Assembly: GCF_000407485.1 (NCBI RefSeq)
Contig: NZ_ASWD01000002.1
Span: 868,001-932,000 of the forward strand
Direction: 5' to 3'
Length of the DNA: 64,000 nt
Source of the DNA: Enterococcus pallens ATCC BAA-351
GTDB taxonomy: Bacteria; Bacillota; Bacilli; Lactobacillales; Enterococcaceae
Shown here: positions 5,159 through 12,459 of the stretch, in pieces
Position numbering within the stretch: position 1 is the stretch's first letter
How the letters are laid out: the number at the start of each line of letters is the position of its first letter
Made by a program: the position numbers and the translations under genes
Notes under the pieces: generated by a model
What the model was told of the DNA's origin: nothing
Database searches by the model: none
What the model saw: only the letters and a program-made list of their open reading frames with translations

Positions 5159-6205
5159 TTACGGGTTTAAAATAACCTTACCATATAATTCTTTTCTTTC
5201 TAATAACTTATCCATCATTTCTGGACCAGCTGATAATGGTTTTCGATGAGTAATGATGTTTTCGGTATTAATTTTGCCATTTGCAAAAAATGTTACGCTG
5301 GTGTCCCATTCCTTACCAGGAAATGGTGCAGATACATTGCTCCAAGAACCGATAACTCTAAGCTCGCTTCTAAGAATTTTTTCAAAGTAATATCTTTTAA
5401 TTTTTACATCACCATATGGAATCCCTAAGAATAAAACTTCTCCCCCTTTCGTTGCATAAGCGTAGACCTGAGAGGCTGTAGTTGGATTTCCTGCTGCTTC
5501 AATTACTAAATTGGCTTTTAGATTTTTTGTTTCTTCTTCCACCCTTTTTTCAACATCTTCATTGAGAGAATTCACAATAACATCCGCACCTGACAACTTG
5601 CTTAATGCCAACTTCTCATCATCAATGTCTACCGCAATAACTTTACTGGCACCATAAATTTTTGCCCATTGAATTGCTAATAAACCAATTGATCCTCCTG
5701 CTCCGACTACCACTACCGAATCACCTGGTTGCAATTTTGTTTGGAATAAACCATGCAAAACAACTGTAGAGGGTTCAATTAAAGCTGCGGAATCAAAAGA
5801 AATGGCATCATCAATTTTGACAAAATTCTCAGATGGTAAACATATATATTCTGCAAAACATCCTGGTTGTTTTGCACCGATTGCATTGTTATGAGCGCTG
5901 CGATTATACTCTCCTTTTCGATAATAATAATCTACTCCATCAAAGACGACCGGGCAACCTGCTACACGATCACCAATTTTTAAATCACTCACTTGATTGC
6001 CTACTTCTACAACTTCTCCTGAAAATTCGTGTCCCCAAACCATTCCTTCAATATAAGGCCCTAATAGGCGATATCTAGAAATATCTGAACCACAAATACC
6101 TGCTGCCTTAACTTTGACAATTACATCATTAGGAGTTTGAAGTGTTGGTTTTTCCGCCTCTTCATATCTTAAATCCTGCACACCATACAATTTTAATGCT
6201 TTCAC
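5159..6205 (-). CDS. Zinc-type alcohol/polyol dehydrogenase of the galactitol-class PTS operon
   Basis: 348 residues, MDR superfamily, like sorbitol or galactitol-1-phosphate dehydrogenases. Catalytic zinc ligands are visible in GICGSD and GHEFSGE. The Rossmann motif is GAGGSIGLLAIQ (about 168), followed by an acidic residue (VDID) that predicts NAD rather than NADP. The structural-zinc loop that normally carries four Cys is replaced by a Tyr/Asn-rich stretch with only isolated Cys. The start is GTG 6205, behind GGGGGG at proper distance and 1 bp after the stop of the epimerase gene, so the genes are coupled. It is the last gene of the operon and probably oxidises the phosphorylated polyol to a ketose phosphate. 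The exact substrate is unknown. Confidence 0.82.
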   Translation of the reverse strand: MKALKLYGVQDLRYEEAEKPTLQTPNDVIVKVKAAGICGSDISRYRLLGPYIEGMVWGHEFSGEVVEVGNQVSDLKIGDRVAGCPVVFDGVDYYYRKGEYNRSAHNNAIGAKQPGCFAEYICLPSENFVKIDDAISFDSAALIEPSTVVLHGLFQTKLQPGDSVVVVGAGGSIGLLAIQWAKIYGASKVIAVDIDDEKLALSKLSGADVIVNSLNEDVEKRVEEETKNLKANLVIEAAGNPTTASQVYAYATKGGEVLFLGIPYGDVKIKRYYFEKILRSELRVIGSWSNVSAPFPGKEWDTSVTFFANGKINTENIITHRKPLSAGPEMMDKLLERKELYGKVILNP

Positions 6206-6206
6206 A

Positions 6207-6854
6207 TTACTTCCCCCCTGCTAAACTTTGTAATGCATTAATATTTTTTTCTTTATCCCCACTAAATAAATTACTACCTACTACAAATAAATCTGCACCT
6301 TTTTCGGCAGCTTTTTGAATTCGCTCTACATTCATACGACCGTCAATTTCAATTAAAATGTTTCGTTCACCAATCAACGCTTTTGTTTGCTCAATTTTTT
6401 GATAAATCGTCGGAATAAAATCCTGATGCCAAAATCCAGGATTAATCGACATCAATAAAATAAAATCAAGATCGTCTAAAAGATAGGTTAAAACTTCCGG
6501 TAAAGTAGCTGGACTAAGAGCAACACCGACTTTGATGTTTTTAGCTTTGATTAACCTAATTATTTCATGGGGATGAGGCGTTGCTTCATAATGAAACGAA
6601 ATCATATCCACCCCAGCATCCGCCAGTAAATCAATTAATTTTTCAGGATGTTGCACCATCATATGCACGTCAATTTTCATTGCTGTATTTTTTTTAATCT
6701 CCCGTAATTGATCGGGACCGAATGAAATGTTTGGCACAAAATTCCCATCCATCATATCAATATGAATAGTTTTAATGCCTTGACTTTCCATAAATGCTAG
6801 CTCAGATTGTAAATTTAATATGTCAGAATTAAATAATGATGGTAATATTTCCAT
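6207..6854 (-). CDS. Ribulose-phosphate / allulose-6-phosphate 3-epimerase-like protein
   Basis: 215 residues, a complete TIM barrel of the ribulose-phosphate 3-epimerase family. Metal and acid/base residues are present in HIDMMDGNFVPN (His/Asp, about 31-42), DVHMMV (about 69) and EIDGR (about 170). Phosphate is held by INPGF and VGSNLFSG. Sequence and context fit an accessory epimerase such as AlsE (D-allulose-6-phosphate to fructose-6-phosphate) as well as a pentulose-phosphate epimerase, and I cannot separate the two. AGGAGTGG supports ATG 6854. The gene lies between the EIIC gene (18 bp) and the dehydrogenase gene (1 bp). Confidence 0.82.
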   Translation of the reverse strand: MEILPSLFNSDILNLQSELAFMESQGIKTIHIDMMDGNFVPNISFGPDQLREIKKNTAMKIDVHMMVQHPEKLIDLLADAGVDMISFHYEATPHPHEIIRLIKAKNIKVGVALSPATLPEVLTYLLDDLDFILLMSINPGFWHQDFIPTIYQKIEQTKALIGERNILIEIDGRMNVERIQKAAEKGADLFVVGSNLFSGDKEKNINALQSLAGGK

Positions 6855-6872
6855 TTCTATACCACTCCTTTT

Positions 6873-8126
6873 TTAAAATAATGTACTTATCCAATAGATC
6901 ATCACACCCCAAATTGGTGCACCGACTGAAACATCCGTGCCTAATCCAGAAATTTCAAAACCAGCTGCTCGCAACATTTCCGTTGCTCCAGGTGCAACAT
7001 AAGCACAGGTATACATTGAGATAATACAAAAAATTAGCGTCGATAAGATCGATCTGAAAAGATTCCCTTTACTTGCTAAAGTACAAACTACTGCGAAGTA
7101 ACAAACAGAAGTTAACATTCCAACTGGGAAAAACTGAACATTTGGCAAGACTAGTGCTGCTAAGATAACTAGTGGAATCGTAATAACTGTTGTCGTAATA
7201 ACTGTTGGATCACCCATCCCAAGAGCTACATCCATACCAATCGATAAATTTTCGTTGTCGCCCATTCTTTTTTTCATAAATTTGTTAGCTGCTTTTCCAA
7301 CAGGTGCTAGTCCACCCATCATTACCCCCACCATTTTAGGCATTAACAACATAACACCGGCCACACCGATACCCATTGAAATAATTTCAGAAACATCTTG
7401 TTTCGTTAATACACCTAACAAAACCCCTACAATTAGTCCAATAACCATTGGATCACCAAAAATCCCGATTCGTTTATGAATTTTCTCCATACTTAAATCA
7501 ATCTTGTTGACTACTGGAATAAAGTCAATAATTCGATTTACTAACCAAGCTACTGGAAAAGTCCAAGCTATTAAGTTAACCGTCGTACAAGTCGTCTCTT
7601 CTAATTTAAAATACTCTTGCCACAAGGGTGCCAGTCTATCCCCTGCAAATAATGCAATAACTGACATTAAAATAGTTACTAAGAATCCAGCGATTACGCT
7701 GTTAAATAAAACATAAGTTAAAAATCCGGGAATTAAAAAATGCATATAGTTCCAGATATCAATATTCATTGTTTTGACAATTTTAAAGCGAATTAACAGT
7801 AGATTTAATAAGAGTCCAACTGGAATCGCAAGAGCAGCAAAAGGAGCCATCCAAGAAGCAGCGCCAACCGCGGCCCAGCCAATATCAATAATGGTATATC
7901 CAGTTCCCAATTCTTGGTAGTAGTCCACCGCCGGCTGTAAAGTAGAGGTTAAAAGATCAACGATCAACCCTAAACCTAAAAATCCTAAACCAACTGTTAA
8001 ACCAGCGATAAGTGCATTTTTAGCTTTCATTCTGAAAAATATACCAAGAAAAAAGATAATGATTGGCAAAATAGCTTTAGCACCTAAATTTAAAACTAAT
8101 TGAACTGCATTGGATAACGTTTCCAT
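6873..8126 (-). CDS. PTS galactitol-class EIIC permease
   Basis: 417 residues and very hydrophobic, with about ten or more membrane segments. It resembles GatC-type EIIC, including the conserved GDPTVITTTVITIP stretch and the loop VGVMMGGLAPVGKAANKFMKKR. It forms the sugar channel that works with the EIIB at 8774 and EIIA at 9069. ATG 8126 follows GGGTGAAGTAA and abuts the stop of the hexulose-phosphate synthase gene, so translation is probably coupled. The transported compound is unknown; the class handles galactitol and related polyols or pentoses. Confidence 0.88.
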   Translation of the reverse strand: METLSNAVQLVLNLGAKAILPIIIFFLGIFFRMKAKNALIAGLTVGLGFLGLGLIVDLLTSTLQPAVDYYQELGTGYTIIDIGWAAVGAASWMAPFAALAIPVGLLLNLLLIRFKIVKTMNIDIWNYMHFLIPGFLTYVLFNSVIAGFLVTILMSVIALFAGDRLAPLWQEYFKLEETTCTTVNLIAWTFPVAWLVNRIIDFIPVVNKIDLSMEKIHKRIGIFGDPMVIGLIVGVLLGVLTKQDVSEIISMGIGVAGVMLLMPKMVGVMMGGLAPVGKAANKFMKKRMGDNENLSIGMDVALGMGDPTVITTTVITIPLVILAALVLPNVQFFPVGMLTSVCYFAVVCTLASKGNLFRSILSTLIFCIISMYTCAYVAPGATEMLRAAGFEISGLGTDVSVGAPIWGVMIYWISTLF

Positions 8127-8762
8127 TTACTTCACCCCGTTTATTTTTCTAAAAATCCCTTCAGCAACTTCTCTTGGTTGAGCATCATTTAAAATACCAC
8201 TTCCCACAATTACAATATCTGGTGATTCTTTTATATAACTATCAATGGTTGATAAATTGATACCACCTGCAACGGCAATCTGACATTTCTTCACATGTTT
8301 CTTCATTTCGATTAAATCTTCTAACGGTGTTCGTCCTTGTTTTTGCAGATCCGCTCCGGTATGAACCGCAATAATATCCACACCTAAGGCCTCAATTTCA
8401 GGAATCCTTTTTTCCAAATTTCCAACACAGATCATGTCAACTAAAACTTTTTTCCCATATTTTTTAGCAACTTCCACACATCCCCGAATAGTTGAGTCAT
8501 CAGTTAGACCTAATACGGTAACATAGTCAGCCTTTGCTTCAAATACCAACTCAGATTCATAAGCACCCGCATCCATAATTTTGGCATCACATAATACCTC
8601 TTTATGAGGATATTTTTCTTTTATTCTTCTGACTGCTTCTCTCCCAGCATCAATCATAAAAGGAGTCCCGACTTCAATGATATCGATAAAGGGAACAATT
8701 TCATCTAGAATATTCAGTGTCTCTGATAAAGATAATTCGTCAATCGCCAACTGGATTTTCAT
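8127..8762 (-). CDS. 3-hexulose-6-phosphate synthase-like enzyme (OMP decarboxylase superfamily)
   Basis: 211 residues. The sequence follows 3-hexulose-6-phosphate synthase (HxlA) closely: start LAIDELSLSE, DIIEVGTPFM, the catalytic D-x-K-x-x-D motif as CDAKIMDAGAYE (about 61), ILVDMI-like VLVDMICVGNLE, VHTGADLQ, and the phosphate-binding VAGGIN...VIVGSGI. HPS joins formaldehyde and ribulose-5-phosphate or cleaves hexulose-6-phosphate in reverse. Its sister KGPDC decarboxylates 3-keto-gulonate-6-phosphate, but MDAGAYE favours HPS. Its place between EIIB and EIIC is unusual and suggests cleavage of an imported sugar phosphate rather than methylotrophy. ATG 8762 follows AGGAGGAAAACT. Confidence 0.8.
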   Translation of the reverse strand: MKIQLAIDELSLSETLNILDEIVPFIDIIEVGTPFMIDAGREAVRRIKEKYPHKEVLCDAKIMDAGAYESELVFEAKADYVTVLGLTDDSTIRGCVEVAKKYGKKVLVDMICVGNLEKRIPEIEALGVDIIAVHTGADLQKQGRTPLEDLIEMKKHVKKCQIAVAGGINLSTIDSYIKESPDIVIVGSGILNDAQPREVAEGIFRKINGVK

Positions 8763-8773
8763 AGTTTTCCTCC

Positions 8774-9076
8774 TTATTTTTCAGCCGAAATATTGGACAA
8801 CAGCTCTTTTAATTCTTCTTTGATTTCATCTTCCTTAATGCCAGTTATTAATCCAGTAATATTCTTATGGGGCTTTAAAATTTCTCCTGAGTAATTATTG
8901 GTCGTAAATACCACATCCACTTGATTCAAATACCCTTCAATCTCAGTCATGCTGCTTTTTTGAATATGAAAAGGAATATTTAAGGCTTCGCACAATTCGC
9001 TTATTTCGTCTGCTGCCATTGTTGAAGTAGCAATTCCGCTTCCGCATGCAATTAAAATTTCGACTTTTTTATTCAT
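8774..9076 (-). CDS. PTS galactitol-class EIIB
   Basis: 100 residues. The phosphocysteine lies in the N-terminal loop EILIACGSGIATSTMA (Cys about residue 11), the hallmark of GatB/lactose-type EIIB. It takes phosphate from the EIIA encoded at 9069 and passes it to sugar in the EIIC. It overlaps the EIIA gene by 8 bp, which implies coupled translation. Confidence 0.9.
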   Translation of the reverse strand: MNKKVEILIACGSGIATSTMAADEISELCEALNIPFHIQKSSMTEIEGYLNQVDVVFTTNNYSGEILKPHKNITGLITGIKEDEIKEELKELLSNISAEK

Positions 9077-9551
9077 AGACTTTTTCCTCCAATTCGATTT
9101 CTATTTTTAATAACTCACTAATTTCTTTTACTGATTGACTATTTTCCGCTCGATGAATTAATTGCTCACTTTTGATAACCTTCATGATTTTTTTTAGAAT
9201 TTTCAAATGATTATTAGCATCTTGTAATCCCAAAAAGAAAAGATATTTTACTGGAATTTCATTGTCAGGTTTATCCATTTGATTCATTTGGATATAATTT
9301 GACAAAATTACAATAGCAATAAAATCTTTTTTAACATACTGACTATCACAATGAGGAATACCAACATTATAATTTTCAAGTACTAAACCAGTAGGAAATT
9401 TTTCCTCTCTGCTTATAATTTCTTCTTGATACCCCTCATTGACATACCCCTTTTCATATAGCTGCTGAGACATGAAGCTAAATAGGGCCTCTCGACTAGT
9501 GAAATCTTGCTGAATCCAGACTAATTGTTCACTTGTAATTGCTTTTTTCAT
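9069..9551 (-). CDS. PTS EIIA, fructose/galactitol type
   Basis: 160 residues from the ATG at 9551 (MKKAITSEQ). This start has GGAGG seven bases upstream. An upstream in-frame start at 9596 would lie inside the sigma-54 promoter and has no ribosome site, so I reject it. The type-2 EIIA fold shows the phosphohistidine in VGIPHCDS (about residue 67). It receives phosphate from HPr and feeds EIIB. As first gene of the operon it should also deliver regulatory phosphate to the activator encoded just upstream. Confidence 0.88.
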   Translation of the reverse strand: MKKAITSEQLVWIQQDFTSREALFSFMSQQLYEKGYVNEGYQEEIISREEKFPTGLVLENYNVGIPHCDSQYVKKDFIAIVILSNYIQMNQMDKPDNEIPVKYLFFLGLQDANNHLKILKKIMKVIKSEQLIHRAENSQSVKEISELLKIEIELEEKVYE

Positions 9552-9579
9552 GTACTTTCCTCCTTCACACATTACATAA

Positions 9580-9596
9580 AGCAAAAACCGTGCCAA
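9580..9596 (-). promoter_or_regulatory. sigma-54 (RpoN) -24/-12 promoter of the galactitol-class PTS operon
   Basis: On the minus strand: TTGGCACG, GTTT, TTGCT. This matches the consensus TGGCACG-N4-TTGCW with GG and GC separated by the canonical 10 bases. It lies 29 bases upstream of the EIIA start codon and directly after an activator gene that has a GAFTGA loop. Confidence 0.9.
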
Positions 9597-9605
9597 GGCA
9601 CGGTT
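9583..9605 (-). terminator. palindrome after the activator gene, overlapping the sigma-54 promoter
   Basis: AACCGTGCC-AA-GGCACGGTT is a perfect 9-bp inverted repeat. On the minus strand it is followed by TTTTTG, so it can act as a rho-independent terminator for the activator gene, although the central loop is short. Its downstream arm is the -24 element, and the activator's TAA lies within the upstream arm. Confidence 0.6.
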
Positions 9606-12450
9606 AGATTTGTGTTTTAGTTAGTAAATCATAAATTTGATTTGGTTGTGTCGTATCTCGAAGCTTATTCAAAAAAGCTTTTGACGACACTAATCGATAT
9701 AACTGCTTAATATAAATATCACTATCTTTATTCAAAGCCAATAGAATAACAAACTCAACTTCTCGGTCATTTTCCCACATTATTGGCGTGGTCAATTTTG
9801 TGATGTAAGCGGTTGGTTTTGTGACGAATTCAGAATCTCCATGAGGGATACCAATCCCGCCTTTTAAAAAAGTTGAATTCATTGTTTCTCTTTTATAGAC
9901 ACTCAGTAAAAAATGATCATCGACATAGCCTTTAATGTTAAGCGCCGTTACCATTTCATCAATCAGCTGATTTTTATTTTTATATTGTTGACAAATTTCA
10001 ATTTGATCTTCTTTAATAAATTCGGAAAGGATATTTTTCCTAATTTCAATGTTGATTGAATCCAAGTAACAGACTAAAGCATTGGGAGATTGTGTTAGTA
10101 GATCATTGGCAAAAAAGAATTTTGCATTAGGAAATTTTGGATTCATGGTTCCTACAATGGCAATAATTTCAAACTGTTCTTGGATTTTTGACAGCTCTAT
10201 TAAAATATCGTTCTCTGAAAAAAAACCAGCTGCTAATATATCTATATCAAATCCTTTATTAGCTAAACTTTCATCTAAGAATTCCTTTATCTCCAAGGCT
10301 GCTCCCTGACCAGTCAAACAAACTGTGACTATAACTTTTTGCTTTTGAGTTATTTTAGGAGTTATTAAGGAAATGCCTTTTTCACTGAGTATCTCGTCGT
10401 ATAGCCCCTCCAAAGTAGTATTGGGCAATAACGATTTTCGAACTGATTCTAATACCATTAAGGTGTCCACCCGATCAATCAGCTTAATCGGCGTTGTTAT
10501 CTGTTCACCGATGATTTCTTCTACCCGAATCAACGAGCCCATATCAGCTAAGATAAGGACCCCTTTTCCACAATCTACCTTTTTTATCTGCTCAATAATC
10601 TGATCCAAAATCATCTCAAAAGAATCATTCAAACTCATTTCAATACCCACTGCATGAGAAGTATTTAAGATAGAATTAGCTACATCTACCATACCTTTAG
10701 CAACATGACCATGACTCAAGACTAATACTCCCACAGATTGCTGACTTTTATTCATTTCTTGGGTAAAATTTTGAAGATATAATGAAATATATGAGTTTTC
10801 GTCTTCAGGCAAGGCAATCCCAAAATGCTGATTGATTTTATCCCGAATTTGATCGGCAAACTCTAAGTAAATAGGATTTTTTATTGAATTAATCGATATA
10901 TGATTGATTTCCTCTTCCTGATTCAGTTGACGATTCACCCGTGATTTTAAATGGAGTGCCAATGGAATCACTACTTGTGAATCAATCGTCGGTAATCTTT
11001 TTTGTACCATTTGAATACATCTGTCAGTTATATCAAGAATATCTTTTCCAATAACACTTTCCACTATGTTTTGATGTAGGTTATCTTTTTGAATTTTTGA
11101 GATAAAACGGCTGAATTTTTCATCGATCTCTTGATTGATAATTTGACTGATTTCTTCTTTGGAATTTCCTTGAAGAATTAGTTTATGATAATTTTCTTCT
11201 ATATAGTCATAAATAGAATAAAGAGATAAATTACCTTTTTCACTAGTCTTCTCCTGATTTTCATCAATTACTAAATCGTTTATAGCACTCTCAAAAAAAT
11301 CGGTTGGCTTAAACGACTGATTTACCATAGGCAATGCCAAATTATGATTATCAATATGGACGACTGCTTGATTATCAATACTTGCTTTTAAAAATGCCCG
11401 GGCGCAAGTTGCCTGAATATCAGATTTCAATTGTCCAACATTTCCCGGACAATCATAGGTAAGCAGATTTTTAATCACTTCTTTTTTTATATGAATAGGT
11501 TTTCCAATTCGTTGACTTTCTGCTTCAAAAAACTTCTTCAATAGGATAAATTTTTCATCTAGCGGTCTTTCAGAAAATTTCGGTAGCATTATACTAATTG
11601 GAATCCGTCTTCTAAAAGTTAGCAACAAAGAATTCTCAGGTTCTTCTGTAGTTGCCGCAATTATTAATACATTGGCTTTTCGAGTTAACTCCGTTTCTCC
11701 TAATCTCCGATACATTTTCTTATCAAACAAGGTAAACAAAATTTCTTGTCCTTCAGGTGGTAAACGATGGACTTCGTCTAAAAAAAGAATACCTCCATTA
11801 CTAATTTCAACTAATCCTTTTCTACTTTCATTTGCTCCAGTAAACGCACCTTTTGTATGACCAAATAGCTGAGAAAGTAAAAACTGTGGGTTTTCAGCAT
11901 AGTCCGCACAGTTGAATACATGATAAGGACTTGATTTAGAAAAGATCTGTTTCTCTTTTCCAAATTCATACATTTTTTGTGCTAAGAAACTCTTTCCAGT
12001 ACCAGAAGGCCCTAATATCAGAGTATGAAGCCCGAAAGGTGGATACAAAACAGCCGCTTTTGCTTGATTAATTACATTTCTTAAACTTCCCTGAGCACCG
12101 ATAATTTCTGCCATTGTATCTTTTGGTGCATGACTAGTAAGTTCTGTCGAAAGTGATTCCTCTATAGCGTTACGAATGCTTTTAATTGTTGTACGGCTTG
12201 CTTCAATTCCCACCTCATTGACTAATGAAGTCAGTTTGCGGTCGGATAATTGTGGATCTGTTTTAAGCAATTTAGCGATCTGTTCTTCAATCGTTTTCCG
12301 CTTTCGTAAACGAGAATCGGGTATCTCATGTTTAAGACGGATTTTTGTTACCGTATCCCTAGCAGTATTTAGCTTTAATGCGATTTGTTCATCAGTCAAA
12401 GGATGATTTATATCCTCTGCTTTTATAATATCTAGAATGTCATCTATCAT
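9604..12450 (-). CDS. LevR-like sigma-54-dependent PTS regulator with a C-terminal EIIA domain
   Basis: 948 residues from ATG 12450 (AAAGGG eight bases upstream); GTG 12459 is the alternative. Domains in order: two N-terminal HTH-like segments (about 1-95); AAA+ sigma-54 interaction domain with Walker A GPSGTGKS (about 150), the RpoN-contact loop GAFTGAN (about 207) and Walker B GGILFLDEVH (about 225); one PRD with a candidate His in PLALHLKSR (about 500); mannose-type EIIA (LSHGHVAKG, about 585); an EIIB-like domain with Cys in TVCLTGQG (about 710); and a type-2 EIIA with GIPHGDS (about 870). Classical LevR ends in a second PRD. Phosphorylation by HPr and the EIIs should set its activity. 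It sits directly upstream of the operon it should control. Confidence 0.9.
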   Translation of the reverse strand: MIDDILDIIKAEDINHPLTDEQIALKLNTARDTVTKIRLKHEIPDSRLRKRKTIEEQIAKLLKTDPQLSDRKLTSLVNEVGIEASRTTIKSIRNAIEESLSTELTSHAPKDTMAEIIGAQGSLRNVINQAKAAVLYPPFGLHTLILGPSGTGKSFLAQKMYEFGKEKQIFSKSSPYHVFNCADYAENPQFLLSQLFGHTKGAFTGANESRKGLVEISNGGILFLDEVHRLPPEGQEILFTLFDKKMYRRLGETELTRKANVLIIAATTEEPENSLLLTFRRRIPISIMLPKFSERPLDEKFILLKKFFEAESQRIGKPIHIKKEVIKNLLTYDCPGNVGQLKSDIQATCARAFLKASIDNQAVVHIDNHNLALPMVNQSFKPTDFFESAINDLVIDENQEKTSEKGNLSLYSIYDYIEENYHKLILQGNSKEEISQIINQEIDEKFSRFISKIQKDNLHQNIVESVIGKDILDITDRCIQMVQKRLPTIDSQVVIPLALHLKSRVNRQLNQEEEINHISINSIKNPIYLEFADQIRDKINQHFGIALPEDENSYISLYLQNFTQEMNKSQQSVGVLVLSHGHVAKGMVDVANSILNTSHAVGIEMSLNDSFEMILDQIIEQIKKVDCGKGVLILADMGSLIRVEEIIGEQITTPIKLIDRVDTLMVLESVRKSLLPNTTLEGLYDEILSEKGISLITPKITQKQKVIVTVCLTGQGAALEIKEFLDESLANKGFDIDILAAGFFSENDILIELSKIQEQFEIIAIVGTMNPKFPNAKFFFANDLLTQSPNALVCYLDSINIEIRKNILSEFIKEDQIEICQQYKNKNQLIDEMVTALNIKGYVDDHFLLSVYKRETMNSTFLKGGIGIPHGDSEFVTKPTAYITKLTTPIMWENDREVEFVILLALNKDSDIYIKQLYRLVSSKAFLNKLRDTTQPNQIYDLLTKTQI

Positions 12451-12459
12451 ATATTCCAC

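Follow-up and report, generated by a model that had tools for sequence, protein, structure and literature searches.

According to the main text of the closest study, Enterococcus faecalis has the RpoN-dependent PTS operons mpt, mpo, mph, lpo, lpt, and xpo, three of which fall in an rpoN mutant (PMC8262876). These operons share with the locus described here the promoter consensus TTGGCACNNNNNTTGCT and, lpt excepted, an activator gene directly upstream (PMC8262876). Unlike our locus, they do not encode PTSs of the galactitol type, and the word "terminator" is absent from the main text (PMC8262876). The Bacillus operons of the LevR/CelR type also combine a PRD-containing sigma-54 activator, a PTS operon, and a -24/-12 promoter; by word count, their main texts are without "terminator", "hairpin", or "palindrome" (PMC10864463, PMC3162934). 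In the sol locus of Clostridium saccharoperbutylacetonicum, according to the available text, a terminator and a promoter region overlap, and a promoter overlaps both a stop codon and a terminator (PMC9402939). However, that arrangement involves -35/-10 promoters in place of sigma-54 ones, together with an antisense RNA, and the same text describes no covarying family (PMC9402939). No description of a sigma-54 promoter inside a terminator was found in the literature searched, which was largely open-access; the available texts of PMC8262876, PMC3162934, PMC7724050, PMC2941500, PMC10864463, PMC9402939, and PMC6424431 contain none.

The window analyzed here is the whole stretch of 64,000 nucleotides from Enterococcus pallens, in which the gene of a sigma-54 activator is followed on the minus strand by a PTS operon. 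The features are collected in Table 1.

Table 1. Features of the activator–operon junction and its surroundings (positions within the window).
Feature	Position	Strand	Basis or remark
LevR-type sigma-54 activator gene	9604..12459	-	Reading frame, Pfam
Activator stop codon TAA	9606-9604	-	Read from sequence
Hairpin, proposed terminator of the activator mRNA	9586..9605	-	Folding, terminator scan
5' arm AACCGTGCC	9605-9597	-	Perfect partner of GGCACGGTT
TT separating the arms	9596-9595	-	Read from sequence
3' arm GGCACGGTT	9594-9586	-	Perfect partner of AACCGTGCC
-24 element TTGGCAC of the sigma-54 promoter	9596-9590	-	GGCAC lies within the hairpin 3' arm
Spacer GGTTT	9589-9585	-	GG and first two Ts paired in the stem; last T in the U-tract
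-12 element TTGCT	9584-9580	-	TT lies within the U-tract; tail after the stem is TTTGCTTT
EIIA gene, first of the PTS operon	9069..9551	-	ATG 9551-9549 behind GGAGG; PTS_EIIA_2 2.2e-33
EIIB gene	8774..9076	-	PTS_IIB 5.9e-12; best NCBIfam galactitol IIB, under cut-off
3-hexulose-6-phosphate synthase family gene	8127..8762	-	TIGR03128, 272.8 bits, cut-off 200
EIIC gene, galactitol type	6873..8126	-	EIIC-GAT 2.3e-64
Ribulose-phosphate 3-epimerase family gene	6207..6854	-	Pfam, NCBIfam
Zinc-dependent dehydrogenase gene	5159..6205	-	Best NCBIfam galactitol-1-phosphate dehydrogenase, under cut-off

The activator showed Pfam matches to Sigma54_activat (2.8e-39), PTS_EIIA_2 at the C-terminus (1.8e-31), EIIA-man (4.3e-10), and PRD (5.5e-10), that is, a sigma-54 interaction domain (AAA+) together with PRD and PTS domains. 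The initial annotation had called it LevR-like, which holds for these domains. However, Pfam revealed no second, C-terminal PRD in this protein, and the single PRD stretch spans residues 482–564. The activator is LevR-type in layout but not LevR, because its C-terminus is EIIA_2 in place of the second PRD, unlike the activators of the related loci L068, L259, L260, and L262 discussed below. Residues 676–813, between EIIA-man and EIIA_2, gave no Pfam match, and residues 6–54, at the N-terminus, align with the end of the model for the sigma-54 DNA-binding domain. In the operon (5159–9551), the presence of synthase and epimerase family genes beside a galactitol-1-phosphate-dehydrogenase-like gene is unusual for a galactitol-type PTS.

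Read from the activator end, the minus strand runs ATC, TAA, CCGTGCC, TTGGCAC, GGTTT, TTGCT, and TTATG, followed by GGAGG and the EIIA ATG. The promoter, TTGGCAC-N5-TTGCT, begins 7 nt past the activator stop codon. Its sequence, TTGGCACGGTTTTTGCT (9596–9580), is an exact sigma-54 match, with the fixed spacing and 0 mismatches to the consensus; it had earlier been described as near-perfect, and the intergenic gap had been given as 53 bases where the actual count is 52. A longer EIIA frame from 9596 was discarded as a mechanical start call that would start within the promoter. The genome encodes RpoN away from the window (Sigma54_DBD, 203.6 bits, G000:C7). The pattern TTGGCACN5TTGCTT occurs at 19 sites in this genome as compared to 0 for the reversed pattern, and the looser TGGCACN5TTGC at 28 as compared to 3. 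We infer that RpoN uses the focal promoter. A vegetative promoter in the activator–EIIA gap was also considered and rejected, as 0 of 3 minus-strand matches fall within 9551–9606. The search for upstream activating sequences returned only inverted repeats at 9661–9680 and 9874–9881, within the activator gene, which are AT-rich and make poor candidates. It is worth noting that 17 of the 19 sites lie on contig minus strands (binomial p 0.0007), for which co-orientation with replication would be a likely reason; the GC skew of the window is -0.107.

The same bases also form a hairpin. As RNA, the palindrome folds into 8 pairs (5 G-C) with a CUUG loop and an energy of -11.9 kcal/mol (z = -3.5); 0 of 200 shuffles folded as well. 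The 3' arm includes GGCAC of the -24 element, as the initial annotation had stated for the downstream arm. Its perfect 9-bp palindrome with a T run stands as far as the arms are concerned, but the RNA stem has 8 pairs and the U-tract is short. The U-tract is made up of the T-rich spacer and the TT of the -12 element, and is broken by GC. It is short because two of the five Ts pair within the stem. The upstream arm had been thought to hold the activator stop codon; it holds AA only, and not the full TAA. The terminator scan called a terminator-like hairpin at this site and also on the plus strand of the same palindrome, and the site has the G+C-rich hairpin followed by a T-rich stretch that is one mark of an intrinsic terminator. 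The presence of a sigma-54 promoter and a terminator-like hairpin on the same bases, between the activator gene and the PTS operon, was thus confirmed.

We consider it probable that this DNA has a dual use, with the activator's intrinsic terminator sharing bases with the sigma-54 promoter of the operon and thereby insulating the operon. In RNA read from upstream, the element would end the mRNA of the LevR-type activator as its intrinsic terminator. In double-stranded DNA, the same element would be the -24/-12 promoter, at which the activator would drive RpoN polymerase to transcribe the PTS operon. Sigma-54 transcripts start approximately 12 nt after the -12 element. As this start is expected downstream of the hairpin, the hairpin should be present only in RNA coming from upstream, i.e., from the activator gene. 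The hairpin is expected to terminate transcription, and the shared terminator would keep vegetative transcription out of an operon that is meant to follow its activator; this insulation would be what is selected. As the initial annotation proposed, polymerases may compete for the shared site and the operon may depend wholly on RpoN. With no more than 8 pairs and a broken U-tract, the focal hairpin may be a weak terminator.

A chance pairing of the upstream flank with a real promoter would also produce such a hairpin. When the promoter was kept and the upstream 60 nt were dinucleotide-shuffled, however, 3 of 3000 sequences reached the energy of the focal hairpin. Among 170 other upstream flanks placed before the focal promoter, one matched this energy, and it belongs to a locus (L089) where hairpin and promoter are themselves fused. 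Within 9000–10200 of the window, the terminator scan marked no further hairpin followed by a T-tail. Across 150 promoters (the census described below), 3 hairpins of this narrow type were found against a shuffled mean of 0.37, and at least 3 occurred in 0.5% of 200 shuffle rounds. This rate (0.37 per 150) predicts approximately 0.05 such hairpins for the 19 promoters of the focal genome. This expectation is in line with a chance origin, and because of it the focal overlap taken by itself is only suggestive of more than chance. Chance would likewise agree with the failure to find an ortholog of the locus. The protein search of 105 family genomes, which we take to be Enterococcaceae, returned no close relative of the activator; the best identity was 36–40%, and the full-length matches had 35–36%. 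Scanning genome contigs yielded three distant matches (26–29%), and a 1.3-kb DNA query had no plasmid match. The comparison therefore rests on other loci of the same architecture. The focal spacer, GGTTT, is of the type found in the fused elements of these loci. Once they are included, the case for an overlap beyond chance is convincing, and we regard a chance pairing as highly improbable.

For this comparison, sigma-54 sites were collected from the 105 family genomes, where TTGGCACN5TTGCTT gave 316 matches (summed by hand) as compared to 5 for the reversed control. The census comprised 150 of these sites, 19 from the focal genome and 131 others, which were the first listed and not a random draw. 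A terminator-like hairpin was required to have -6 kcal/mol or better and to end no more than 120 nt upstream of the promoter and no more than 12 nt inside it. Such a hairpin was present at 84 of the 150 promoters. In 70 cases it was separate, with the stem end 37–94 nt upstream of the -24 element, and in one case this distance was 19 nt. At ten promoters the hairpin abutted, with the stem end 3–7 nt before the -24 element and the T-tail running into TTGG. The abutting layout was seen at L030, L141, L157, L169, L181, L190, and L217, and also at L139, L160, L258, and L150. Only three hairpins overlapped the promoter in this first scan, namely those of the focal locus, L163, and L176. The separate terminators likewise place a hairpin between gene and promoter, presumably with the same insulating role, although the promoter lies outside the hairpin DNA, unlike in the fused element. 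The initial interpretation is thus supported in part, and the shielding of the operon from read-through fits these 70 separate and 10 abutting hairpins. The overlap is not needed for insulation, however, because promoters with separate hairpins are insulated as well, if that is what those hairpins do.

A looser minimum-energy test flagged 21 of the 150 sites, with a shuffled mean of 12.06 (largest 20). This test barely parts signal from chance, and it was not relied upon. Seven of its flags (L024, L145, L173, L185, L186, L188, and L204) were rejected as fused elements, as their stop codons are 62 or 146 nt away. At another census site, L246, the upstream sequence comprised only 57 nt, up to the contig end. 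A cluster of 15 loci (L024, L145, L173, L186, L188, L204, and others) has the stop codon mostly 62–63 nt and a terminator-like hairpin mostly 52–59 nt before the promoter. Between hairpin and promoter, these loci carry a similar CTTATCA..GCAGC-like stretch, which may hold a shared element.

The occurrence of fused elements followed the distance between the upstream stop codon and the promoter. This distance was evaluated at the 140 census sites with a same-strand upstream open frame of at least 60 codons. The stop was no more than 30 nt away at 22 sites, of which 18 were fused and one more was abutting. There were no fused elements at the 8 sites with the stop 31–45 nt away, where seven hairpins abut by the scan and one (L150) by eye, or at the 110 sites with longer distances. 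The contrast (18/22 vs 0/118) corresponds to a Fisher p of 3e-19, although the fused sites amount to only three independent cases (cluster A described below, L163, and the focal locus), because 16 of the 18 belong to one orthologous cluster. L089, which is outside the census, breaks the rule, being fused with its upstream stop 101 nt away. When the stop codon is 7–26 nt from the promoter, a separate terminator would hardly fit, and the two signals would have to share DNA.

The upstream proteins were clustered by single linkage at 45% identity over 100 residues. Cluster A contains 28 loci; in all of them the stop codon is 24–26 nt from the promoter and, upon folding, the hairpin 3' arm takes in GGC or more of the -24 element. 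The end of the activator is a PRD, alone or together with EIIA-man (checked for L068, L260, and L262), and the gene after the promoter is EIIA-man (checked for L068 and L260). Two types can be told apart. In type A1 (13 loci), the 3' arm consists of the -24 element and spacer bases, and the U-tract of the remaining spacer Ts and the TT of the -12 element, which is the same layout as in the focal element. In type A2 (15 loci), the -24 element, the spacer, and the -12 element are all in the 3' arm, with energies of -20 to -32 kcal/mol. The first census scan missed type A2 because it allowed stems only 12 nt into the promoter. Sixteen cluster A loci come from the census: L176 and 15 of type A2 (L020, L140, L179, L191, L202, L209, L218, L224, L227, L234, L237, L245, L247, L251, and L254). 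All 16 fold with the -24 element in the hairpin, and in 15 of them the 3' arm consists of the complete -24/-12 promoter. The other 12 came via hairpin patterns, and therefore provide no independent evidence of hairpin presence.

Fused elements were also found outside cluster A. L163 and L277 represent a distinct locus, where the promoter follows the stop codon at 11 nt; L259 belongs to the L163 locus and has an EIIA-man gene downstream. L089, from another family, has arms identical to the focal ones, with the end of a PRD/EIIA-man activator upstream and a lactose/cellobiose-type EIIB gene downstream. L287–L290 (A2-type) and L293 (from another family) show the cluster A spacing behind a 497-codon frame, and their proteins were outside the clustering.

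These loci bear on a further reading, namely that the hairpin is a non-terminating 3'-end stabilizer or processing element in a read-through RNA of activator and operon, and that the overlap with the promoter merely saves space. The GC interruption of the focal U-tract would suit such an element. However, the spacer ends in TTT in 16 of 17 A1-type elements as compared to 4 of 147 other promoters (A2 counted among the others), and a stabilizer has no need of this T enrichment. Terminator-like hairpins with T-tails, moreover, also occur at longer distances in this family (included in the 84 of 150 above). We consider the stabilizer fairly unlikely.

Pattern scans extended the search beyond the family. 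The first composite pattern gave 25 matches in 395 genomes of the order as compared to 13 for the reversed pattern, and hence mostly reflects chance. We read 22 of the 25 matches, leaving out L084, L085, and L088 near contig ends, and kept only the focal locus, L068, and L089. A class-wide pattern matched in 62 of 398 genomes; 30 loci were read, and these were mostly coding or ordinary terminators. Two of the class-wide matches, L100 and L104, were unconvincing as fused elements. L108, from another family of the class, carries at 1501–1527 a GTGCCA/TGGCAC palindrome on a sigma-54-like promoter before a gene identified by eye as AcoA-like; it was rejected as a fused element, with the upstream stop 160 nt before the hairpin. 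The second hairpin pattern gave 30 matches in 27 of the 105 family genomes as compared to 3 reversed, and 16 were kept. Fourteen were dropped by eye for a coding look or the lack of promoter context (L261, L070, L071, L266, L072, L278, L268, L269, L270, L073, L276, L074, L075, and L280). The A2 pattern was found in 13 of the 395 genomes of the order and in 0 for the reversed control. Ten of these belong to the family, one is G111 (L293), and the remaining two matches are without the context (L291 and L292). In the class, it matched 7 of 398 genomes, four of them outside the order.

Because the focal activator has no close relative in the 105 family genomes, covariation was examined in alignments of the related loci. 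The A1-type alignment contained 17 sequences, 16 of them distinct (13 A1, L259, L277, the focal element, and L089), whose rows had been selected by their GTGCC/GGCAC core; the variable outer pairs played no part in this choice. In this alignment, 98.1% of the cells were paired (91.1% when shuffled), 8 cells were changed on both sides (1.9 when shuffled), and the covariation score was 0.224 as compared to 0.092 for shuffled and at most 0.072 for slid alignments. The A2 alignment of 20 sequences (18 distinct) yielded 98.2% paired cells as compared to 89.5%, 28 cells changed on both sides as compared to 7.8, and a score of 0.285 as compared to 0.103 for shuffled and at most 0.040 for slid alignments. 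The double changes of A2 are at spacer positions 1–4, which the sigma-54 consensus leaves free. Two of the five covariation measures were weaker. For the pairs changed on both sides, the observed value was reached in 32 of 500 shuffles for A1-type and A2 each; for further pair types, it was reached in 1 of 500 (A1-type) and 95 of 500 (A2). These shuffles overstate the significance, because the members of the alignments are related. Own flanks gave the 20 A2-type loci an average of -26.2 kcal/mol as compared to -20.2 for swapped flanks. The overlap of promoter and terminator looks selected, because it recurs at other loci and covaries there.

The arm changes also bear on the reading of the palindrome as a DNA operator, whose arms would bind a dimeric repressor, or the activator itself, controlling the access of RpoN polymerase. 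The palindrome is near-perfect and lies on the promoter, a common place for operators. However, the arms change in compensating pairs between orthologs while their sequence is not kept, and the gap in the GTGCC-GGCAC core of the A1-type set is 2, 7, 8, or 9 nt. The compensating changes and the variable gap point to a hairpin and argue against a sequence-specific operator. In addition, the main text on the E. faecalis operons places sigma-54 activator sites usually ~80–150 nt upstream (PMC8262876). An operator at this position is, in our view, very unlikely.

A perfect A2 palindrome would make a second sigma-54 promoter, aimed back into the activator gene. All 15 census A2 loci had a broken mirror -24 element in an otherwise paired stem, and the mirror TTGC was kept in 12 of 15. 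In type A1, the mirror -24 was intact in 13 of 13 loci and the mirror TTGC was present in none. In A2, selection may have kept the hairpin but forbidden the backward promoter, or the pattern may reflect shared descent within one locus. L293 is the exception, having a complete and perfect mirror sigma-54 promoter.

From the geometry of the dual-use element, it follows that polymerases would collide at the shared site. This raises the idea of a feedback switch, in which promoter occupancy by RpoN polymerase would tune the supply of its own activator. A closed RpoN complex on the -24/-12 promoter would block an incoming polymerase before the stop codon and the hairpin are copied, resulting in a truncated activator mRNA; from an empty promoter, a complete activator mRNA would result. 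We regard such a switch as unlikely.

Stop signals in RNA and promoters in DNA are usually kept apart in annotation, while in the reading favored here one stretch would serve both. At the related loci, both roles would be kept through compensating pair changes at spacer bases that sigma-54 ignores. The element would thus be a natural system for studying how one piece of DNA accommodates a closed sigma-54 complex, an arriving polymerase, and a terminator. Changes in the promoter would often alter termination and vice versa, which matters for mutants of such sugar-uptake operons.
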